Position numbers and translations under genes: made by a program
Notes under the pieces: model-generated
Told to the model about the DNA's origin: nothing
What the model saw: the letters and a program-made list of their open reading frames with translations, nothing else
Databases searched by the model: none
DNA from: [Limnothrix rosea] IAM M-220
Lineage (GTDB): Bacteria; Cyanobacteriota; Cyanobacteriia; Cyanobacteriales; MRBY01
Direction of reading: 5' to 3'
NCBI RefSeq assembly: GCF_001904615.1
Contig: NZ_MRBY01000015.1
Location: 1 to 64,000, forward strand
DNA: 64,000 bases
Part shown: piece by piece, positions 627-44,534 of the stretch
Layout of the letters: each line of letters begins with the position of its first letter
Position numbering within the stretch: the stretch's first letter is position 1

Positions 627-3242
627 GTGGTAGTTACTGTTTCTCGTCCCCAACCGGCTGATTACGAAGCGTTAATTACGACGGATGTTTTTAAACCTGC
701 TCGTTATTTGGGTAATGAACTGGGGGCAGTGCATAAGCCTTGGGATAAAGCGGTGATTCGCTGGGTCTTAACTTATCCTGAGGTCTATGAGGTTGGTTCG
801 TCGAATCTTGGTCACATTTTGCTCTACAACGTGATCAATGCTCAGCCTCGCCAGCTTTGTGATCGTACTTATCTTCCGGCAAAGGATCTTTGTGACAAGT
901 TAAAGGAAAAGGATTACCCCTTATTTGCCCTAGAGTCCCGGCGATCGCTGCAAGAATTTGACATCTTAGGATTTAGCCTTAGTTATGAGCTGGGGGCAAC
1001 GAATATTCTCGAAATGTTGTCTCTCGCGCAGATTCCCCTCACATGGCAAGAACGCGAGAACGGTGACTATCCCTTTATTTTTGCTGGGGGGCAGACAGCA
1101 ACTTCCAACCCTGAACCCTATGCCGACTTTTTCGATTTTGTTGTGTTAGGTGACGGCGAAGAACTGTTGCCAGAGGTGGGTTTTATCCTCGAAGAAGCCA
1201 AGGTTAATGGTCTTAGCAAAGAAGAAACATTATTGGATTTGGCGCAGGTTCCCGGTGTTTATGTGCCGCGTTTCTATGAAATGGCGGCAGCCGATGGCTC
1301 GGTTCATCCGATCCGTGACGATGTGCCCAAACGGATTTTGCGACGGGTGGCCACGCCGATCCCGGCCTATTCCATTGGTCTTGTGCCTTTTGTGGAAACG
1401 GTGCACGATCGCCTGACAGTAGAGATTCGGCGGGGTTGTACACGGGGTTGTCGTTTTTGCCAACCGGGCATGTTAACGCGTCCTGCCACAGATGTGGAGC
1501 CGGAAAAGGTTGTAGACGCTATTGAAAAAGGCATGCGGGCAACAGGTTATAACGAGTTTTCGCTGTTGTCCCTGAGTTGTTCGGACTATTTGGCGCTGCC
1601 TGCGGTGGGCATTGAGATTCGCAATCGTCTTAAGGATGAAAATGTCTCGTTGTCTTTGCCGAGTCAGCGGGTTGATCGCTTTGATGAAAATATTGCCAAT
1701 GTGGTGGGTGGTACGCGGAAGGCGGGTCTAACTTTTGCACCGGAAGCCGGAACCCAACGGATGCGGGATGTGATTAACAAGGGTTTAACGAATGAAGAGC
1801 TTTTGCGTGGTATTCAAACGGCGGTGAAAGAAGGCTGGAATAAGGTCAAGCTCTATTTTATGATTGGCTTGCCCGGCGAAACGGATGTGGATGTGCTGGG
1901 TATTGCGGAGACGTTGCGCTGGTTGCGGCAGGAATGTGCTCACCTTAGTAATAAGCGGCTGAATTTCAATATCACTATTTCTAATTTCACGCCGAAACCC
2001 CACACGCCGTTCCAATGGCACTCGGTTTCTAGTTCTGAATTTCAGCGGAAACGGGAATTGCTCGAAGCGGAAATGCGCAAGATTAAGGGTCTTAAGGTGA
2101 ACTACACGGATTACCGCATCTCGGCGATGGAGGATTTTGTCGGGCGGGGCGATCGCCGTTTATCTAAAGTTGTCCGTCGGGCGTGGGAACTGGGTGCGGG
2201 GATGGATGCTTGGTGGGAAAATCTCGATAAAGCCTATGGCGCTTGGGAACAGGCGATCGCCGAATCGGATCTCACATGGAAATATCGCAAAGTTGAAAGT
2301 GGCGAGTGGAATGTATTTGAGACTTCTGATTCTGATCCGCTGGATGCGCCATTGCCTTGGGATCACATTAATACAGGTATCGATAAGCAGTGGCTTAAAG
2401 ATGATTTGCGTCGGGCATTAGAAGCAGCCACCGTTCCTGACTGTGCGTTTGATGGCTGTTCCCATTGCGGTATTTGTGGCACAGATTTTGGTCATAATGT
2501 CGTTTATCAACCCCCAGAAATTCCCGAATTTGTCGGTGAGTTTCAGCGGGATCAACAGCGTCTCCAGCGATTTCGGGTGCGGTTCGGCAAAAAAGGCGAT
2601 ATGCGTCTCGTCAGTCACCTTGATTTAGTACGGCTGTTTGATCGCGTGGTGCGTCGTGCCTCTATCCCCGTCGCCTTTACCAATGGTTTCCATCCCAGCG
2701 GTCGGATTTCTATCGCCAATGCCCTAACCCTCGGAGCCACCAGCGAAGGAGAAATTATTGACTTTGAGCTAAAGGAAATTCTCGATCTAGACGATTTTCG
2801 CGCGCGCCTTACCGAGCAATTACCCGACGACATCCCCGTTTTATCCGTGGAAGAAGTCCCCGTTAAATCTAAAGCGGCAACTCAGTTACTCACAGAAGCT
2901 GAATATTTAATTAATGTAAAAACTAATGAGGCGATCGCCCCCGAAACTTGGGAGAGTTGGATTCAGCAGGTGCAGGAGGCGACGGAAATTCTATTCGAGA
3001 AAAAATCGAAGAAAGGTAAGATTCGCCAGATTAATCTCTGCGATCGCCTAACTTCTATTTGCTTTGAAAAAACCTTGGATAACAACCAAGTTCAGATTCG
3101 TTATCGCGGTAGTTGTCGTAACGATGGCACGTTGCTGCATGCTGAACATGTGGTATATATGTTGAACCATGTCGCTCCAGAACAGGATATTCAATTAATA
3201 CACACCCATCGCCTAAATATGTTCTTAGAAGAATCAGAATAG
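627..3242 (+). CDS. B12-binding-domain radical SAM protein with C-terminal DUF2344
   Basis: A large radical SAM enzyme of the type fusing a B12-binding-like N-terminal region, a radical SAM core and a DUF2344 tail. The [4Fe-4S] motif is RRGCTRGCRFC, that is C-x3-C-x2-C, near residue 275. A Cys cluster (CAFDGCSHCGICG) near residue 620 separates the core from DUF2344, which begins near RFRVRFGKKGDMRLVSHLD. The substrate is not known; related proteins are often linked to RNA or rRNA modification, which is inference here. The open frame extends to a GTG at 594, but the GTG at 627 is preferred because GGAG lies nine bases before it. The protein is then 871 residues. Confidence 0.85.
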   Translation: MVVTVSRPQPADYEALITTDVFKPARYLGNELGAVHKPWDKAVIRWVLTYPEVYEVGSSNLGHILLYNVINAQPRQLCDRTYLPAKDLCDKLKEKDYPLFALESRRSLQEFDILGFSLSYELGATNILEMLSLAQIPLTWQERENGDYPFIFAGGQTATSNPEPYADFFDFVVLGDGEELLPEVGFILEEAKVNGLSKEETLLDLAQVPGVYVPRFYEMAAADGSVHPIRDDVPKRILRRVATPIPAYSIGLVPFVETVHDRLTVEIRRGCTRGCRFCQPGMLTRPATDVEPEKVVDAIEKGMRATGYNEFSLLSLSCSDYLALPAVGIEIRNRLKDENVSLSLPSQRVDRFDENIANVVGGTRKAGLTFAPEAGTQRMRDVINKGLTNEELLRGIQTAVKEGWNKVKLYFMIGLPGETDVDVLGIAETLRWLRQECAHLSNKRLNFNITISNFTPKPHTPFQWHSVSSSEFQRKRELLEAEMRKIKGLKVNYTDYRISAMEDFVGRGDRRLSKVVRRAWELGAGMDAWWENLDKAYGAWEQAIAESDLTWKYRKVESGEWNVFETSDSDPLDAPLPWDHINTGIDKQWLKDDLRRALEAATVPDCAFDGCSHCGICGTDFGHNVVYQPPEIPEFVGEFQRDQQRLQRFRVRFGKKGDMRLVSHLDLVRLFDRVVRRASIPVAFTNGFHPSGRISIANALTLGATSEGEIIDFELKEILDLDDFRARLTEQLPDDIPVLSVEEVPVKSKAATQLLTEAEYLINVKTNEAIAPETWESWIQQVQEATEILFEKKSKKGKIRQINLCDRLTSICFEKTLDNNQVQIRYRGSCRNDGTLLHAEHVVYMLNHVAPEQDIQLIHTHRLNMFLEESE

Positions 3243-3302
3243 CTTCCGATATCCTAATGCCGTGATTTTATAGTCAAAGCCAATAAGCTTAGGACTAAAA
3301 AA

Positions 3303-3376
3303 GTCGGGGATTTGTGAAATTCTGTCGCAGTAAACAAAACCTTTTGAAAAATCCCCGACCTTGGAACCCCAAGGTC
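3303..3376. repeat. Nested inverted repeats (gtcggggattt family)
   Basis: GTCGGGGATTT at 3303-3313 is perfectly inverted at 3349-3359. It runs directly into a second perfect hairpin, GACCTTGG-AACC-CCAAGGTC, at 3357-3376. No T tract follows, so a simple intrinsic terminator for the radical SAM gene is unlikely. The same core (agaagtcggggatct) recurs as an inverted pair at 13440-13505, so it appears to be a dispersed intergenic element. Confidence 0.6.
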
Positions 3377-3402
3377 TATGTACTAATCTTGTTAGCCTTA
3401 CC

Positions 3403-3560
3403 TGAGTTTTGCTTAAGAGTGCTCGACAATACGACGCGGTGAATAAGAGAGCGGGAGATAGGGCGATATTTTGATTCAAACAATCCTGGCTTTCAAAAAA
3501 TGCAAATTTTCGTTGCTTCCCCGTGTCTTTCTCTCTCCGTGTCTCCTTTTCTCTAGAGAA
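3403..3560. repeat. Dispersed intergenic repeat, copy 1
   Basis: Positions 3403-3439 match 63964-64000 at 32 of 37 bases (tgagttttgcttaag...tacgacgcgg). The right end, with a CCGTGTC-CTTTCTCTC-CTCCGTGTC pattern at about 3531-3560, resembles 8268-8300. The stretch carries no credible gene; the open frame at 3234-3479 on the minus strand lies over the repeats and is not believed. The rest of the 3243-3772 spacer holds nothing I recognise. Confidence 0.5.
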
Positions 3561-3772
3561 TTTTGGCTACATGCTTATCCATAACCGACGTTAGCCTTGG
3601 CTCTAGTTACAAAATAGAGACAGTTTTTATCCTTTCTTGGGGAAGATCTCGGAAGCGGAATGAGTTTCAAGCGGTTACGTAATTCACGGTCAATCGACCT
3701 CTGAATTCCCTTGAAAAGGAAACTTTTTAATCCTTACTCCTTTGTCACTATCCAAAATTTTAATTGTGGAGA

Positions 3773-4804
3773 CTAGGGTGCAAAGACTCTCGCATCAAGT
3801 CCATAAGACCGTAAGTAATAGCTGAGGCTCTCAGCAGCGTCCCGGTTATCAGAACGACCTGCTTCAACAAACTGGCCTCGGCGAGAATCAACCAGTCGAG
3901 CTCCATCAACGTATCGACTAACAATCATAAGAGTTGACTCAGAACGAGCTGGTACAACCACGATGTAGCGTGATGACTCTTCAAAAATAGAACGAGCATC
4001 ATCACCTAAGACAATTTCCAGTTGTCCTTCTGTCTGGGGACCAACTATACCATCAGCAGTGATTCTCCTTGATTGCTGAAAAGCGATGACTGCATCTCTA
4101 GTCTGCTCATCAAACACGCCATTAACCGGCACGTCATAACCAATGCGCCGCAAGGCTCTCTGGAGTGTCCTAACGTCTGAGCCTTGATCATTTAGCCTAA
4201 GATTTCTGCCGCTTAAGATACCTGTACCCGTATTGCTAGAGGCAAAAATATTAGACGCGACATTCGTATTGCGGGAACCCACGCTGATGTTACGGAAAGT
4301 GGGAGGTGGCGGCGGCGCAAGTAATTGAGCCCTCTGAGTTGTTGGGTTTAGTCTGGCCACTTTATTTGTAAGCGCACTACAAGTAGCTCGTCCATAAATC
4401 CCATCGGCTCTAAGACCACTACTAGCTTGAAATCGTCTTAAAATATCGTCGGTTTGATTCCCGAATACACCGTCAACACCGATATTAGGATAGCCTCCAA
4501 GTTTGAGATCTTGTTGCAGAGCAGTGACAGCAGCGCCTCTAGCACCTTTTTCAAGAAAAATGCCATTGCAATTACTCGTCTGGGCGATCGCCGCCGGGAC
4601 AAATGTGGGACTGACAAAACTCGGAAGAATCGGACTAAATAAAGCGATCGTGATGCTCATCAGATTGGCGACTAAACGCGGCGATCGCCACTGTAGGGGA
4701 ATGGAAAATAATTTTATTAAGCGGTGGTGTAGATTAAAACTTAAATTTAGAGACGCATATTCCGCCTCCCACAACATTGCTTCGGTCAGTCCTAGGGCTT
4801 CCAT
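3773..4804 (-). CDS. Peptidoglycan-binding domain protein (two PG_binding_1 domains)
   Basis: A predicted exported or envelope protein of 343 residues with two PG_binding_1 domains. The first, around residues 83-145, has GARGAAVTALQQDLKLGG and VDGVFGNQT; the second, around 205-265, has GSDVRTLQRALRRIGYD and VNGVFDEQT. A hydrophobic stretch near residues 45-75 may be a signal or anchor. The C-terminal ~70 residues (RYIVVVPARSES...SLSYYLRSYGLDARVF) resemble a SPOR-like alpha/beta fold, which is tentative. The frame opens at a GTG at 4852; the ATG at 4804 is chosen because the resulting MEALGL...YE N-terminus resembles METLAI...YE of the other peptidoglycan-binding protein at 26499. Confidence 0.75.
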   Translation of the reverse strand: MEALGLTEAMLWEAEYASLNLSFNLHHRLIKLFSIPLQWRSPRLVANLMSITIALFSPILPSFVSPTFVPAAIAQTSNCNGIFLEKGARGAAVTALQQDLKLGGYPNIGVDGVFGNQTDDILRRFQASSGLRADGIYGRATCSALTNKVARLNPTTQRAQLLAPPPPPTFRNISVGSRNTNVASNIFASSNTGTGILSGRNLRLNDQGSDVRTLQRALRRIGYDVPVNGVFDEQTRDAVIAFQQSRRITADGIVGPQTEGQLEIVLGDDARSIFEESSRYIVVVPARSESTLMIVSRYVDGARLVDSRRGQFVEAGRSDNRDAAESLSYYLRSYGLDARVFAP

Positions 4805-4929
4805 GAAAATATTTGCAATAGCAGACGATGGGATTAATTTTATTGATAGCACGAAAAAGTGCCACGGCTAAAAAGATCCCAAGATTCTTATGAAACTCTT
4901 CATTCAAATAATTAGTGAATAATATGATT

Positions 4930-7182: not shown

Positions 7183-8028
7183 TTAGTTGCGTTGGTGGGA
7201 AAACTGATAGGCTCCCACAAAAGCAAGGGCGATCGCCACACCAGCCAAAATGGGAATGGCGTGCCAAGGAAATTCGGATAAGGGTAAGTACGCAGCAGAC
7301 CTCAATCCTGTTGTTGTATAGGTCAAAGGAATCAGGTAAACAACGGTGCGAAAGGCCGTGGGCAAGGTCTCTGGGTCAAAAAATGTTGCACCAAGGAAAG
7401 ACATAGGCACAATCAAAAAATTATTTAAAATACCGACACTTTCTAAAGATTGAACGCGTAAACCAACAATCACGCCCAAACCCGCAAAGACGGCGCAGTT
7501 AAGAATCAGGAGTAGAAAAAACAGAGGATTGAAGAAGCTAAAAACCTTACCCGTAAATAAAATTGCCACCACAATTACCGAACTCGCAGTGAGCAAACCC
7601 CGCAGGATGCCCGCCATCATTTTGCCGAGATGTAACGCCAATGGATGCACGGGCAACAGCAGCAATTCTTCAAAGGTTTTGTTGTAGAGGCGATCGCCGC
7701 AAATGGAAAAAGTTGTACCACCAAAACTAATGGTCATGGACGAGAGAGCCACCATCCCCGGCAAGATGAATTCGAGGTAAGTATCACCAGCAGGAGGTGT
7801 AATCGCGCGATCAATGGCACCGCCCAGACCCAAGCCAAAGGCCAAAATGTAAATCAGCGGCGAAACTAAACCCGTTGCCGCCACTTGCTTCAGGCGCACC
7901 CGTAGCTTTAGCCAATCGCCCCAAAAAACAGCGAGGGTATCAGACCAAATATTTGCTAATTCAGACTTGGGTTTTAGTGCTCTAGCAGAAGAGGCGGATT
8001 GTGATGGCGGAGAGTCGAGCTTAACCAC
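7183..8028 (-). CDS. ABC-2 type transporter permease
   Basis: A six-helix ABC-2 family permease of 281 residues, the membrane half of an export ABC system. An amphipathic N-terminus (FWGDWLKLRVRLKQVAATGLVSPLIYILAFGLG) leads into hydrophobic segments, with LPGMVALSSMTISFGG and LLLLPVHPLALHLGKMMAG typical of the family. No ATPase gene is adjacent, so it must be encoded elsewhere. The frame stays open to 8127, but TATAAT on the minus strand at 8063-8068 sits inside that extension, so I start at the GTG at 8028. It heads the run of envelope genes that continues to 4930. Confidence 0.8.
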   Translation of the reverse strand: MVKLDSPPSQSASSARALKPKSELANIWSDTLAVFWGDWLKLRVRLKQVAATGLVSPLIYILAFGLGLGGAIDRAITPPAGDTYLEFILPGMVALSSMTISFGGTTFSICGDRLYNKTFEELLLLPVHPLALHLGKMMAGILRGLLTASSVIVVAILFTGKVFSFFNPLFFLLLILNCAVFAGLGVIVGLRVQSLESVGILNNFLIVPMSFLGATFFDPETLPTAFRTVVYLIPLTYTTTGLRSAAYLPLSEFPWHAIPILAGVAIALAFVGAYQFSHQRN

Positions 8029-8062
8029 AGTTAAAAGTTTTGCAATGTTACATCGCTTAACA

Positions 8063-8068
8063 TTATAG
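8063..8068 (-). promoter_or_regulatory. Putative -10 box for the ABC-2 permease operon
   Basis: TATAAT on the minus strand lies 35 bases before the chosen GTG start. It argues against the longer reading frame to 8127. No clear -35 box was identified. Confidence 0.3.
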
Positions 8069-8136
8069 GAGGATTGGGTTTTTCCGTTGGGCGATCGCCG
8101 TGATTTCTGGGGGAAAGATTTAGGCAACTACAGAAA

Positions 8137-12685: not shown

Positions 12686-13454
12686 GGGGTTCAGCAACGA
12701 ACTCTACTTGCTTGTTGGCGTATCTAAATTGTAGTACTTGCCAAAGGGAGAGATTTCAAACATGTAGGGTGTGTGGAGACGGCAAAAAATTGAGGCAAAG
12801 ACCGATGAATTGTCATCCGTCGTAACGCACCACAAGAGATGTCGGTAGATTTTTCATTGGTTGCGAAATTTATTGAAACATCTCCCCTCTTCGAGTACTT
12901 CCAGCAATCCTTTAGATCTCCGACTTCTGTGGCTAGATTTGAGAGGGGTTCAGCAACGAACTCTACTTGCTTGTTGGCGTATCTAAATTGTAGTACTTGC
13001 CAAAGGGAGAAATTTCAAACATGTAGGGTGTGTGGAGACGGCAAAAAATTGGGGCAAAGACCGATGAATTGTCATCCGTCGTAACGCACCACAAGAGATG
13101 TGGGTGGGTTTTTCATTGGTTGCGAAACTTATCGAAACCCCTTCCCCTCTTCAAGTACTTGTACTTCTCGCAATTTTTTAGATCTCCGACTTCTGTGGCT
13201 AGATTTGAGAGGGGTTCAGCAACGAACTCTACTTGCTTGTTGGCGTATCTAAATTGTAGTACTTGCCAAAGGGAGAAATTTCAAACATGTAGGGTGTGTG
13301 GAGACGGCAAAAAATTGAGGCAAAGACCTGTGAGTTGTCATCCGTCGTAACGCACCGCAAGAGATGTCGGTAGATTTTTCATTGGTTGCGAAGCTTATCG
13401 AAACCCCTTCCCCTCTTCGAGTACTTCCAGCAATCTTTTAGATCTCCGACTTCT
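12686..13454. repeat. Three tandem copies of a ~260 bp repeat
   Basis: Units start with GGGGTTCAGCAACGAAC at 12686, 12945 and 13211, giving periods of 259 and 266 bases; unit 2 carries a short insertion (gtacttct) near 13159. Each unit ends with agatctccgacttct, and the junctions between units add gtggctagatttgaga. Copies differ at scattered positions only. Part of the repeat keeps an open frame in the plus direction, but with no ribosome-binding site, so it is treated as non-coding. The block begins 16 bases upstream of the antitoxin start. It looks like a mobile or recombination-prone intergenic element amplified in tandem. Confidence 0.85.
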
Positions 13455-27195: not shown

Positions 27196-28428
27196 ATGGT
27201 CAAAATCAACGAAAGTTACCTCAAATTAAAGGCTGGTTATCTATTCCCAGAGATCGCCCGCCGTGTCAATGCATTTGTCACCGAGAATCCCGACGCGCCG
27301 ATCATTAAACTCGGTATTGGTGATGTCACCGAACCACTTCCCGATGCTTGTCTCGACGCAATGGCTGCAGCCGTCAAAGAAATGGGCGATCGCGCCACCT
27401 TTAAAGGCTACGGTCCCGAACAAGGCTATGCATGGCTCCGCGAAAAAATTGCAGCCCAAGACTTCCAAGCCAGAGGTTGCCAGATTGATGCCTCCGAAAT
27501 TTTTGTATCCGACGGCGCAAAGTGTGACACCGGCAATATTCTCGACATTTTTGGCAAAGACAATACCATCGCCGTCACTGACCCTGTTTATCCCGTTTAC
27601 GTAGACACAAACGTCATGGCTGGCCACACAGGCGAAGCAGACGAGTCTGGCAAATACGGCGGTCTCACCTATATTCCCATCACCGCCGACAACGAATTTA
27701 CCGCTCAGATCCCCACTGAAAAAGTAGATCTCATTTACCTTTGCTTCCCTAATAACCCCACTGGCGCAACAGCCTCAAAAGAACAGCTCCAAGCATGGGT
27801 CGATTACGCCAAGACCAACGGCTCCATTATTTTCTTTGATGCCGCCTACGAAGCCTTTATTACTGATGACAGCCTCCCTCACTCCATTTACGAACTAGAT
27901 GGAGCAAAAGATTGTGCCATCGAATTCCGTTCCTTCTCTAAAAATGCTGGTTTCACCGGAACCCGCTGTGCATTCACCGTTGTCCCCAAGACCTTAACCG
28001 TCAAAACCTCTAGCGGTGAAGAAGTGCAACTTTGGAAGCTGTGGAATCGTCGTCAGTCCACTAAATTCAACGGTGTTTCTTACATTGTGCAGCGGGGTGC
28101 TGAGGCCGTTTACTCTGAGGCAGGTCAAGCTCAGATTAAAGAACTTATTAGTTTTTACCTTGAAAATGCAGCCATTATCCGCAAAGAACTTGAGTCCGTT
28201 GGTTTCGATGTTTTTGGTGGCGTGAATGCCCCTTACGTTTGGGTGAAAACCCCTGAAGGTTTAACGAGCTGGGACTTCTTCGACAAGCTGCTCATCAACT
28301 GTAATGTTGTGGGGACACCGGGTTCCGGTTTTGGGGCTGCGGGCGAAGGTTATTTCCGTATCTCTGCCTTTAACAGTCGCGAAAATGTGCTTGAAGCAAT
28401 GAAGCGGATTACGACTGCATTTAAGTAA
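27196..28428 (+). CDS. dapL: LL-diaminopimelate aminotransferase
   Basis: DapL converts tetrahydrodipicolinate directly to LL-diaminopimelate with glutamate as donor, the lysine/peptidoglycan route used by cyanobacteria and plants. The N-terminus [24 protein letters not shown] and the segment [12 protein letters not shown] are typical. The PLP lysine is in [15 protein letters not shown], with CFPNNPTGA and [15 protein letters not shown] as further landmarks. At 410 residues it is full length. It is transcribed alone on the plus strand, 70 bases after the previous gene. Confidence 0.95.
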
Positions 28429-28448
28429 ATCTTTTCAAGCAAAAGAAT

Positions 28449-28560
28449 GGCGTTGCTGAATTGAAAGATGAATTAGTCAATCTAGAAATTTTAAGAGAGC
28501 TACTTTCTAGACTTTTCTTGATTTGTCAGTGCAAGCATCCTCTTCTGTTTCACCAACGCC
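28449..28560. mobile_element. MITE-like element with 12 bp terminal inverted repeats and 14 bp target duplication
   Basis: The 112-base element begins GGCGTTGCTGAA and ends TTCACCAACGCC; the ends are inverted with one mismatch in 12. It is flanked exactly by the direct repeat TCAAGCAAAAGAAT at 28435-28448 and 28561-28574, the footprint of transposition. It is far too short for a transposase, so it is a non-autonomous element or an internally deleted insertion sequence. The open frame at 28461-28652 runs through it and is not a gene. The family is unassigned; long target duplications of about this size occur in some IS4-like elements. Confidence 0.75.
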
Positions 28561-28684
28561 TCAAGCAAAAGAATAATTTACTGGATCGAATTTCGCTTAA
28601 CTGGGGATGCATTAGTAATGATGCATCTTTTTTATATTTTTGCTCTCATTGAGCAATTCGAAGGAAGCGAAATCACTAACTTTT

Positions 28685-31600
28685 TTATCTACATATCAAC
28701 CACGTAATCAAAACAATAGTCAGCCCAACACCAAACCAGAAGTATTGAGGTCTGATTTTCAAGTGTCTTTGAATTGTAGAGAGGGGAGAAAGAAGTAAAC
28801 GAATTGCAAATAGAAAATAACCGAGAGGTAGATTAAGCCACACCATTCGCTTTTCTGTCTGAATCATCACATCCGCCCATTCTCCCTCGTCTGAGGATAA
28901 AAGAAATTGCTTCGATATATCTGGAATTGGAATTTCAGCGAGAGGAATCTGAAGCTCTTGCCAAATTCGATAGGCTTGATGGCGATACCGCATAGCACGT
29001 TTTAACTGACCGCGTCTTAAATAAGTATTTGCTAAAGACCAAATAGAATTAGCTTCACCTTTGCGATCGCTAATTTCTTGTCTGATTTCTAAGGACTGCT
29101 GATAAAATCCAATCGCTTGCCGATATTCGTGCAGGTTATGGTGGGTATTACCCAAATTTCCTAGTAAGCTTGCTTCGCCAAGATGATCACCAATTTTTTG
29201 CTTAATTTCTAGAGATTGCTGATAGGGTTCAATCGCCTGCTCGTATTGCTTTAAGGCATGATGAACATTACCAATACCCAATAATGAGAGTGATTCGCCT
29301 CGGTGATCGCCAATGTCACGGTTAACGCCACACTGTTGTTGATAAAATTCAATTGCTTTTTGATATTCTTCTAAAGAATAATAAGCATTGCCTAAGTTAC
29401 CCAGAGAATTATTCTCTCCTTGGCGATCGCCAATCTCTTTCCAAATAGCTAAAGACTGGTAATAGAGTTCAATTGCTTGCTGATACTCGCGTAGGTAATA
29501 GTGGGCATTCCCTAGGTTTTCTAGTAAGCTTGCTTCGCCTCTTTGATCGCCAATTTCTCGCTTAATTTCTAAAGATTGCTGATAGGGTTCGATAGCCTGC
29601 TCATATTGCTTTAAGGCATAGTAAACATTGCCAATACCTCCTAATGAGAGTGATTCGCCTCGGCGATCGCCGATTTCTCGCTTGATTTCTAAGGACTGTT
29701 GATGCGATACAATTGCTTGCGGATAATCTTTCAAGGAGTAATAAACGCTGCCCGAATTACTCAAGGAATTTGCTTCGCCCTGGCGATCACCAATTTCCTG
29801 CGCAATCTCATATTGCTGTTGGTGAAACTCAATAGCTTTTTGATACTCGCCCAAAGAATGGTAAGCATTGCCCAAATTACCCAGAGAATTGGCTTCTCTT
29901 TGGCGATCGCCAACTTTACGACACACAATACACCGTTGTAGTAAAGTATCGACTTCTTGTTGATGTTCTCCGAGATTTTTATAGTTAATTTTAAGGCATC
30001 CCAAAAGTTCAATCTCTGAATGAAAATCATTACTCTCATGCCTAATTTCCAGAGCTTGCTGGTAGAAATCAATTGCCTTTTGATATTCTCTTAAAGAGTT
30101 ATAGATATCGCCTAGACTTGCTAGAGAGTTTGCTTCACCTTTGCGGTCGCCAATTTCACGCTTAATCCCTAACGATTGGTGATGTAAGTCAATTGCTTGT
30201 AGGTACTTTTTTTGTAAATAGTAGACATTACCTGAATTCCCCAGAGAATTAGCTTCTCCTTGGCGATCGCCAATTTCTTGAGCAATGTCATATTGTTGCT
30301 GATAAAGTTCAAGAGCTCGCTCATATTCACCTTTTATTTTGTAAGCGATTCCTAAATTTCCTATAGCATTGGCTTCACTTTGACGATTATTCGTTTCATG
30401 CCTAATGACTATTTCTTGCTGTAAAAAATCAATAGCTGGTTCAGCCTCTTTTAAAGCTAGGTAAGTTTTTCCTAAACCAAAATAGGAGTTTGCTTCAAAT
30501 ACTCGATTACCAGCTTCGCGTTGTACAGGAAGTGCTCGTAGATAAAAGTCAATTGCTGTTTGATACTCGCCTAAAGTGCGATAAACATTGCCTAGGTTAC
30601 ATAAGCTGCCACCTTCAATATTCAGATCACTGATGGTTTTCGATAACTCTAGAGCTTGTTCGTGATAGTGAATTGCTTGTTTGTATTGCTTTAGCCCATG
30701 ATGGCTAAGACCTAAATTCACCAGTGAGTTCGCCTGACCTTGACGATCATTAATCTGAGCCTGAAGAGTAATAGCTTTTTGTAGATACACGATGGCTTTC
30801 TCATTTTGTCCCATCTCATGATGAGTCCACCCTATCTTATGTAGAACATTGCCTTCATCTTTACGGTCGCCAAGTTCCCTAGAAATATCATGGCACTGTT
30901 GATAAAAATCAATTGCTTCTTCATATCTTTTTAGAGAGGTGTAAGCGTCGCCAAGATCACATAACGAACCACTCTCTCGCCAGCGATCGCCTAGCTCTTG
31001 CCGAATCTTTAATGCTCGTTGATACAACTCAATCGCCCTTTGATGTTTCCTCATTGAATGATATGTACCACCCAAACAGCTCAGATTTTTTGCTTCCTCA
31101 GGGTGTGCTTTTATCTGCTGAGTAAGCTCTATTGCCTTTTTATAAAATTCAAGCGCTTCCGAATATTGTTCAAATTTAAAATAAACATTACCCAAACATC
31201 TAAGAGAAAGAGCTTCAGACCAAGGCTGACCAATTTTTCGCCTAACATCTAAAGCTTGTTGATGAAAATTAATTGCCTGCTGACATTGACCTTGAAATTT
31301 ATAAACGTCACCTAAGCTAGCGAGGGCATCAGCCTCACCATGACGATTGTTTATTGCTTGATTAATGTCTAGAGCCTGCTGGTAAAAATTTCTAGCCTGC
31401 TGATATTCCAGAAGACAGGTATTCACATAACCTAAGTTAATCAAGACTGCAGCCTTACCCTGCTGATTATCAAGTGATTCTTGAATATCTAAGCATTGCT
31501 GAAAAAGATCTTTTGCCTTCTCATACTCCCTAAGAGATTGATACGCATTTCCTAAATTGCTCAGGGCATTAGCTTCGCCTTGAAGATAATCCTCTTCTTG

Positions 31601-33937
31601 AAAAATACAAAGTGACTGTTCATAAAAATCAATAGCTTTATAATATTTACCTAAACCTTTATAAATAAGTCCCAAGTTGTCTAAAGAACTGGCTTCGCCT
31701 CGACGGTTATCGATTATTTTTCTGATATTTAATGCTTGCTGATGTAACTCAATAGCCCTCTGGTATTGTCCTAATGAATCATATGCATAAGCCATAAGTG
31801 TTAAAGATCGGCTTTTACTATGTTCATTACGAAGCTTATGGTAAATATCTATAGCTTTCTGAAAAAGACTAATAGCTTTCTTATATTGTCCAATTTTTCT
31901 ATAAACATCTCCTAATCCATCGAATGCTTGTGCAATATTTTTATCAGCATCTACTTTTTGTGCACTAGATAAGAGTTGTTGGCAAGTGTCGATAGCTAGT
32001 TGATATTGACATGAAGAGTTATAAGTATTAGCAAGATTTTCTAGAGAAACCATCTGCTGATATACACTGCAACTTTCTTGCTTGATTTTTAGAGCTTGCT
32101 TATGAAACTCCAGCGCTTGTTCATATTGAGAACGTCTCTCACAAATATTGCCGAGATTTCCTAAAGCATTCGCTTGAATTTCAGAGCTGTTAATTTCTCG
32201 ACCAATTTGTAAAGCTTGATGTTGTAGCTCAGCTGCCTGCTGATATTCCTCTAAAGCTTGGTAAGCATTACCTAAACCACCGAGAGAGTTAGCTTCGAAA
32301 TGACGATTTTTAACCTCTTGTTGAATCGGAAGAGCGCAGGTGTAGTAATTGATCGCTTGTTGATATTGCCCAAGAACGTAGTATGCATGACCTAAATTGC
32401 ACAGACATCCCCCTTCGCCATTACGGTTACCATTAATCTGATGAAGTTCTAAGGATTTTTGAAAAGCGGCAAGTGATTGCGAGTAATTTCCCAATGATCG
32501 ATATAAACTTCCCAAAGAATTCCATGCCCAAGCTAGGTTGCCAGCATCATTATTGTTCTCTGGTTGCCACCCCTGAGTCAGCCTTTCGTAAAGTGGCAAT
32601 AAAACTCGCGATTTTCCTTTTTTATATAGCGAAACATGACAACGTCTAAGAATCTTGTCTGCTTGTGGATAGTTCCCCAGCTCACAAGTATGGTGAAAAG
32701 CTTCCAATATCTCTTGATAACTTTCAACAGTTTCCTTATCTCCTTGAGCCTGAGATTCGTAATAGGCGATCGCCCGTTGATGACTTTCTATTTCTAGAGA
32801 GGAATCTATTAATTTCTCGTGAACTAATGATGCGACTAGCGGATGCAAAGTAAAACAATCTTCTTCCACAGACAATAAGCCACGTTCGACTAAACCCTGT
32901 AGAGACTGCTTCATGATTTGAGTTGCAAGATCACCAAACTCGAACCCATGCTGTTCTTCCATCTTTTGTTGAAGTTCTAACAACGAACTTTGCATCGACT
33001 GAGCCATCATCAAGCTAAAAGGTATCCGGTATACCGATACCCTCAATAACAAGTCTTGCCACCCCTCCGGCAATGCTTCGAATATCGTTTCAAAAACATC
33101 CTCTACTTTTGCCGTTGGGTTACCTTGATATTGCCGAAATAACCGGCGAAAAAAATCAATAGCCGTCTCATCAACTTTCGCCTCATACGCCTGTAGTACC
33201 CATGCAGCTGCTAACTTGAGTAACAAAGGGTGCCCTTCCGTCAAAGCAGCGAGAGTATCACAACGTTTACCTTGCACTCCTTGTCTCGATAAAAGCTCTA
33301 CTCCTTCTTCTACCGTCATTCCTGTCAGTTTTAGCGGTACTTTAATAACAGTATTGAGCCTTGTTGTCACCAATACTCGACTCAACTGCCCCTGTCTTGC
33401 CCAGCACCGTAAAAACTGTTCATACCAAGTCCAGTCATTATGAGATCGTGCTGTATCTAACTGATCCATCACCACCAATAATCGTATGGGGCGATTCACA
33501 TCATTCAGTCGCAACAATAATTCTCGCAACAATAATTCCTCTTGTGCCAAGGGATCTTTAACTGGACGACCGAGTTCCTGCAAAATGTATCGCGCAAAGC
33601 GATCAAAAGAATGAGGTTGCCGAAAATTCACCCATACACGGCGATCAAATTCATTTTTTAGTTGAGAAAACCCCCATGCAGCCAATGATGATTTTCCAAA
33701 TCCACCAGCCGCGACAATCTCTACTACAGGTTTTTTATCAAGAAAATTACGTAACTGCTTTTCATGAGCTGGGCGATTAATCCAGTAGTTCTCATAAAGA
33801 GGGGGATTTTCTCCTACTCCCGATACAACAATATCTTGCTGTGTCGGCAGCGCGATAGAAATAGAACCCATAGGTTCATAAATAATGAACTGATCACGTC
33901 CATAATTCGTATTTTGACTGGTTATTTTATTTTCCAT
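28685..33937 (-). CDS. NLR-like STAND NTPase with thirty TPR units
   Basis: A 1750-residue NLR-architecture protein. Residues 9-28 carry a short motif (NYGRDQFIIYEPMG) shared with the C-terminus of the upstream gene product. The NB-ARC-like NTPase follows: Walker A GGFGKSS near residues 76-86, Walker B LLVVMDQLD near 152-160, VLVTTR near 188, then a winged-helix-like region. Residues about 470-1669 are thirty consecutive 40-residue TPR units, the sensor. The last ~80 residues end in a probable membrane helix (YFWFGVGLTIVLITWLICR). ATG 33937 is chosen over TTG 33958 because AGGAG lies six bases upstream. It is probably co-transcribed with the small gene 49 bases upstream. Confidence 0.88.
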   Translation of the reverse strand: MENKITSQNTNYGRDQFIIYEPMGSISIALPTQQDIVVSGVGENPPLYENYWINRPAHEKQLRNFLDKKPVVEIVAAGGFGKSSLAAWGFSQLKNEFDRRVWVNFRQPHSFDRFARYILQELGRPVKDPLAQEELLLRELLLRLNDVNRPIRLLVVMDQLDTARSHNDWTWYEQFLRCWARQGQLSRVLVTTRLNTVIKVPLKLTGMTVEEGVELLSRQGVQGKRCDTLAALTEGHPLLLKLAAAWVLQAYEAKVDETAIDFFRRLFRQYQGNPTAKVEDVFETIFEALPEGWQDLLLRVSVYRIPFSLMMAQSMQSSLLELQQKMEEQHGFEFGDLATQIMKQSLQGLVERGLLSVEEDCFTLHPLVASLVHEKLIDSSLEIESHQRAIAYYESQAQGDKETVESYQEILEAFHHTCELGNYPQADKILRRCHVSLYKKGKSRVLLPLYERLTQGWQPENNNDAGNLAWAWNSLGSLYRSLGNYSQSLAAFQKSLELHQINGNRNGEGGCLCNLGHAYYVLGQYQQAINYYTCALPIQQEVKNRHFEANSLGGLGNAYQALEEYQQAAELQHQALQIGREINSSEIQANALGNLGNICERRSQYEQALEFHKQALKIKQESCSVYQQMVSLENLANTYNSSCQYQLAIDTCQQLLSSAQKVDADKNIAQAFDGLGDVYRKIGQYKKAISLFQKAIDIYHKLRNEHSKSRSLTLMAYAYDSLGQYQRAIELHQQALNIRKIIDNRRGEASSLDNLGLIYKGLGKYYKAIDFYEQSLCIFQEEDYLQGEANALSNLGNAYQSLREYEKAKDLFQQCLDIQESLDNQQGKAAVLINLGYVNTCLLEYQQARNFYQQALDINQAINNRHGEADALASLGDVYKFQGQCQQAINFHQQALDVRRKIGQPWSEALSLRCLGNVYFKFEQYSEALEFYKKAIELTQQIKAHPEEAKNLSCLGGTYHSMRKHQRAIELYQRALKIRQELGDRWRESGSLCDLGDAYTSLKRYEEAIDFYQQCHDISRELGDRKDEGNVLHKIGWTHHEMGQNEKAIVYLQKAITLQAQINDRQGQANSLVNLGLSHHGLKQYKQAIHYHEQALELSKTISDLNIEGGSLCNLGNVYRTLGEYQTAIDFYLRALPVQREAGNRVFEANSYFGLGKTYLALKEAEPAIDFLQQEIVIRHETNNRQSEANAIGNLGIAYKIKGEYERALELYQQQYDIAQEIGDRQGEANSLGNSGNVYYLQKKYLQAIDLHHQSLGIKREIGDRKGEANSLASLGDIYNSLREYQKAIDFYQQALEIRHESNDFHSEIELLGCLKINYKNLGEHQQEVDTLLQRCIVCRKVGDRQREANSLGNLGNAYHSLGEYQKAIEFHQQQYEIAQEIGDRQGEANSLSNSGSVYYSLKDYPQAIVSHQQSLEIKREIGDRRGESLSLGGIGNVYYALKQYEQAIEPYQQSLEIKREIGDQRGEASLLENLGNAHYYLREYQQAIELYYQSLAIWKEIGDRQGENNSLGNLGNAYYSLEEYQKAIEFYQQQCGVNRDIGDHRGESLSLLGIGNVHHALKQYEQAIEPYQQSLEIKQKIGDHLGEASLLGNLGNTHHNLHEYRQAIGFYQQSLEIRQEISDRKGEANSIWSLANTYLRRGQLKRAMRYRHQAYRIWQELQIPLAEIPIPDISKQFLLSSDEGEWADVMIQTEKRMVWLNLPLGYFLFAIRLLLSPLSTIQRHLKIRPQYFWFGVGLTIVLITWLICR
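33854..33913 (-). other. Shared NYGRDQF motif on the NLR N-terminus
   Basis: Codons 9-28 of the NLR gene. Of the 20 residues, 11 are identical to residues 107-126 of the upstream protein and four more are conservative. Alternating hydrophobic residues on both sides of a P-x-G turn fit a beta-arch. Confidence 0.7.
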
Positions 33938-33986
33938 GCCAGCTCCTATTTCTTCCAAAAAAATAGAGAAAACCTAAGATTTCATC

Positions 33987-44388: not shown

Positions 44389-44534
44389 AGTGGTTACAGA
44401 GTTAAATGTTGAATGTGTTTCAGTAAAACAGATCGAGAGATTTACTTAAATCTACGTTGTGATCCGTAGACCATCTTAATATCCCTATGCTCGAATTGGT
44501 AAATTTACGTCATCCCTTAGTAAAAATAAAAAAC

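Follow-up and report, generated by a model that had tools for sequence, protein, structure and literature searches.

Insertion sequences of the IS1 family are tabulated with GGnnnTG ends and a target duplication of 8-9 bp (table of PMC10425158; for the duplication, also PMC12428005). The GGnnnTG pattern is common to IS1 and to most of the IS6/IS26-type elements discussed in PMC6807381. In E. coli, a mini-IS1 in which a gene lies between two inverted repeats transposes, according to preliminary work mentioned by the authors of PMC12428005. Miniature inverted-repeat elements (MITEs) are also known in cyanobacteria. Nezha (Zhou, Tran and Xu 2008) is one of them, and ISNpu3-like elements have been suggested as the source of its mobility (PMC3049150). 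Anabaena sp. 90 carries 147 complete or partial MITEs, for which its authors found no tie to the insertion sequences of the genome (PMC3542288).

Cyanobacterial IS1-family insertion sequences of 705-810 bp (L097, L114, L115 and L192) share with our element the GGnnnTG ends and similar 24-bp ends, and some of them show the same C/G difference between the ends; the element, in contrast, is 112 bp long, lacks a transposase, is flanked by a 14-bp instead of an 8-9-bp duplication and occurs as a single copy. Small IS1-ended elements (G032, G046 and other genomes, and records of Anabaena, Dolichospermum and Plectonema) have the element's tips, lengths of 90-172 bp and mostly duplicated flanks, but their duplications are mostly 7-9 bp (13 bp once) and their interiors are not recognisably common with that of the element. 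The element is very probably a MITE-type, non-autonomous remnant of an IS1-type insertion sequence, whether the small form itself moved or a longer form was deleted in place.

Structure of the element and its gene neighbourhood

The window (the whole stretch of DNA that was analysed, 64 kb) contains the element between an aminotransferase gene and a convergent NLR-like gene:

27196-28428, plus strand: class I/II aminotransferase gene, which we take to be that of LL-diaminopimelate aminotransferase, dapL
28435-28448, plus strand: left copy of the 14-bp target duplication TCAAGCAAAAGAAT (repeat search)
28449-28560, tentatively minus strand: 112-bp probable non-autonomous IS1-type element (MITE-like)
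28449-28472, plus strand: outer end 1, GGCGTTGCTGAATTGAAAGATGAA, at best 21/24 to an IS1-family element end
28537-28560, minus strand: outer end 2, GGCGTTGGTGAAACAGAAGAGGAT (minus-strand reading), at best 19/24, to the left end of L192 and to one end of the G022 element (L103)
28561-28574, plus strand: right copy of the 14-bp target duplication (repeat search)
28603-28630, plus strand: terminator-like hairpin of 12 pairs with a T-rich tail (terminator scan)
28685-33958, minus strand: NB-ARC and tetratricopeptide-repeat (NLR-like) gene, convergent and outside the element

The 14-mer is duplicated perfectly on either side of the element, and the 64-kb window, searched with up to two mismatches allowed, contained one further match, with two mismatches. 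The inverted ends, GGCGTTGCTGAA and GGCGTTGGTGAA, agree at 11 of 12 positions; this agreement is good for 12 bp only, being 17/24 over 24 bp. A scan of the window for inverted repeats (10/12 or better, 50-400 bp apart) bordered immediately by a direct repeat of 8-15 bp returned three rows: the element, the element again in a 12-bp register, and positions 7700-8090, the other place that passed, whose repeat includes GCGATCGC. With the same limit of 10/12, no structure at all appeared in 60 windows simulated with a first-order Markov model. After relaxation to 8/12, there were 17 rows in the window and 110 rows summed over the 60 simulations, which shows that weaker structures arise often. A chance origin would have in its favour the shortness of the repeats and this frequency of weaker arrangements; against it, no arrangement as strong was present in the simulated windows and both ends match those of IS1 elements, and we regard it as extremely unlikely. 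The original prediction of a small transposition footprint of 112 bp, with an intact 14-bp duplication and 12-bp ends differing by one mismatch, was thus confirmed. Its reading of the insertion as recent was not supported, because the 0 differences between the two 14-bp copies bound per-site divergence only below about 19% (95%).

The element is short, carries no transposase gene and has terminal inverted repeats and a flanking duplication, all of which are features of MITEs. Taken with its repeats, it had an RNA structure z score of -0.22 (79 of 200 shuffles were equally good). Comparison of the locus with Rfam gave a single match far under the gathering score, and comparison with a plasmid collection gave none. 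Neither the exact end pair nor the 21-base joined target site was present in viral contigs (0 occurrences of each), and no mention of the 13-base end sequence was found in the set of papers searched. Elsewhere in the window, a tandem repeat with a 266-bp unit (2.9 copies, 92% matches) occupies positions 12686-13454 and contains at three places TTCAGCAACGAA, which differs from the element's end motif at two positions.

The element starts 20 bp past the aminotransferase stop codon, upstream of the hairpin on the aminotransferase strand. The hairpin (one found in the terminator scan vs. 0.3 expected by chance) is most likely the terminator of the aminotransferase gene. Given this position between a stop codon and a likely terminator, the element would be expected to be transcribed within a longer 3′ untranslated stretch of the aminotransferase gene. 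The stop codon of the NLR-like gene is 110 bp past the right duplication, beyond the hairpin, and no link between the element and this gene was found at the locus. The proposal that the element marks the downstream border of an NLR operon is therefore not supported. The NLR-like gene itself has a long tetratricopeptide-repeat run (20 TPR_12 stretches) and an internal 360-bp repeat at 29045-29801. A promoter candidate at the right junction (9/12 match) was dropped, as one such match was found vs. 0.8 expected by chance. For the RNA structure of the spacer, z was -1.53 (14 of 200 shuffles were as good).

Ends compared with those of the IS1 family

A domain search of 60 genomes for the IS1 transposase (PF03400), which was present in 31 of them, supplied reference elements independently of the element's sequence. 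The 18 ends of nine such IS1-type elements were compared with all 24-mers of the 64-kb window on both strands. The two top-scoring 24-mers were the element's two ends (21/24 and 19/24), and the third best, at position 44390, scored 18/24; because the nine references were restricted to GGC-type ends, chosen after the element was seen, with GGT-type elements and loci without clear ends left out, this result is strong for IS1-end-like places in the window and weaker for the IS1 subgroup. The best scores were still 21 and 19 when a tenth reference, the G022 element found through the element's tip, was added. Only two (L097 and L099) of eight reference elements had a target duplication, and the ninth (L192) had none.

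Both ends of the element read GGCGTTG, which fits the IS1 pattern, and the C/G difference between them at position 8 is also present in G005 and G059 IS1 elements. The G022 element with such ends is 778 bp long and appears by eye to carry a broken IS1 transposase on its minus strand; it has no target duplication, and Pfam, applied to one frame, returned InsA domains only, below threshold. L192, from the congener G005, has an uninterrupted IS1 transposase of 233 aa (PF03400, E = 3.3e-22). End 2 of the element (28560) and the left end of L192 are alike at 33 of 46 bp, and past the shared first 12 bp 240 of 5000 shuffles were as good. This likeness hints at a minus orientation of the element.

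The assembly that contains the window is a draft of 4.07 Mb in 92 contigs, in which the element is present once, where a MITE is expected in several host copies. The further copies that the original prediction had anticipated in this genome were not found, and the end motif was not enriched either: GGCGTTGCTGAA (at most one mismatch) occurred 27 times vs. 25 times for the reversed control. PF03400 had no match in the draft genome, and the element does not encode the transposase expected of an IS1 member. Two weak IS1 transposase matches were discarded, as they cover residues 2-51 only and the stretches in which they lie have their highest scores with other zinc ribbons. As for the anticipated full insertion sequence with the same ends, similar but not identical ends were found in IS1 elements of other genomes of the genus and order, and no partner was found in the own draft, where repeats may be hidden and an IS1 copy may have been lost in an assembly gap. 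Given that the search of the draft yielded no IS1 transposase, the element is an orphan there and probably immobile.

Small elements with similar tips and the length of the duplication

The 112-bp sequence was searched against 388 genomes of the order, with two candidates scored per genome, and 26 genomes, including the element's own, matched at E ≤ 0.001. Among the listed matches at this threshold (self excluded), 28 of 31 started at query positions 1-5, that is, at the tip; listed tip matches spanned 22 to 60 bases, and none of the listed matches from the 388 genomes reached the right-hand end of the element. Internal matches in G004, G038 and G323 were rejected because their E values (3e-4 to 9e-4 per genome) are near chance over 388 genomes. 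At 53 loci from such matches, where only end pairs with a duplication were recorded, there were 22 small elements (90-172 bp) in 14 genomes. Their duplications were of 8 bp in 21 elements (four of them with one mismatch) and of 9 bp in one. L051 and L153, two of the 22, have the same flanking sequence and seem to be a single insertion.

When named genome records were searched for exact copies of the two 12-base ends at a spacing of 75-105 bp, 11 matched, ten cyanobacterial and one from Rhizobiales, the latter dropped because it has no duplication. Six of the ten cyanobacterial records had 7- or 8-bp duplications, two had 13 bp and two had none. Within the six, L129 and L133 have flanks in common and look like one insertion. 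The two 13-bp records (L126, positions 4728-4830, and L135, positions 3762-3864) contain a 103-bp Dolichospermum element that has this end pair and whose duplication matches at 12 of 13 positions; because of their common flanks, they apparently represent one insertion.

Sixty IS1 loci were examined (40 from G005, 10 from G050, five from G045 and five from G003). Ends were readable in 35 of them, 34 of which were from G005, and the other 25 gave no ends. The most frequent duplication length in these 35 full-size elements was 8 bp (25 elements), one element had 9 bp, and nine had no duplication. Twenty further G005 regions stand outside these counts; one of them, L229, repeats the L097 element. 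IS1 is abundant in G005, where its transposase gave 153 matches (E ≤ 10), many of them partial.

IS1 may also give duplications of 10-14 bp. The duplication of the element lies outside the 8-9 bp listed for the family, and the accessible parts of the literature on IS1 duplication length yielded no 14-bp case. Among such ends a 14-bp duplication is unusual but not alone, as the 13-bp Dolichospermum duplication indicates that long duplications do occur with them. Given the 14 bp, "IS1-derived" is used here for what the ends suggest and not as a claim of full membership. Alternatively, the element could have been moved by a transposase from outside the IS1 family whose regular duplication is about 14 bp, the IS1-like ends being convergent. 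The absence of such a length from the 35 IS1 elements would fit this account, but no other 24-mers of the window match IS1 ends as well as the element's own two ends do, duplications of 8 or 9 bp accompany the same tips in small elements, and the Dolichospermum element, with both end sequences, has 13 bp in two records; we regard it as very improbable and retain the IS1-derived reading. A regular 13-14 bp stagger in the cutting of some IS1-type ends of cyanobacteria, as the element and the Dolichospermum case might suggest, is quite doubtful; if real, it would be a variant of IS1 target cleavage and not a rare slip.

The corresponding site in congeners and the origin of the element

Among the congeners, G005 has the most similar aminotransferase (92% identity), and its spacer downstream of that gene lacks the element. 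When the joined flanks of the element were aligned with this spacer, the score was 44 (shuffle mean 28.6, SD 5.6; four of 1000 shuffles reached 44). At the target itself, the window and G005 have in common only AAGCA and scattered bases, and no terminator was detected when the G005 spacer was scanned, so that the likeness of this spacer is less than it seems by eye. One G005 stretch that resembles the target may be the empty site; in view of the limited likeness at the target and of the missing terminator, the alignment offers support and not proof. The empty site expected in a relative was thus recovered weakly, at modest similarity, in one congener. In four other genomes of the genus (G001-G004), no such element was seen in the 240 bases after the gene, which were looked over unaligned, and the 24-base tip (at most six mismatches) was absent from the loci examined.

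The corresponding G005 spacer contains another IS1-type element (L066, positions 2802-4095), with a foreign transposase gene, IS5-like by eye, inside it. Also in G005, a 66-bp palindrome (58/66) of two IS1-type ends is located at L226, positions 2429-2494, some 215 bp away from the L192 element.

We propose that loss of the transposase genes reduced an IS1-type insertion sequence to approximately 112 bp with both terminal ends, and that a transposase acting in trans then put this form into the spacer just past the aminotransferase stop codon. Staggered cuts 14 bp apart, followed by gap repair, would have created the flanking repeats. The order of events could also have been the reverse, with a full IS1-type element inserted first and its interior lost at the site, in which case the 112-bp form itself would never have moved; as the origin is common to both, this is a sub-case of the IS1-derived remnant and its likelihood is included in that of the latter. 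The interior is not convincingly common to any other locus found, so there is no sign that the 112-bp form multiplied, and end 2 bears a weak resemblance to the transposase-proximal left end of the congener's IS1 element. Both observations agree with deletion in place. The elements of the same size class with such tips in 14 other genomes of the order indicate, however, that a small form is a usual product, and in none of its six frames did the interior of the element meaningfully resemble the L192 transposase (best 8 residues, E = 0.26). We consider deletion in place a possible but rather unlikely course. By either route, the probable IS1-derived remnant has no evident function and is most likely inert.

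By itself the element matters little; it adds an orphan to a known kind of small elements derived from insertion sequences. It also carries a caution, in that such a footprint should not be taken as the border of a neighbouring NLR gene. Its 14-bp duplication is a small datum on the possible variability of the target cuts made by IS1-type elements.
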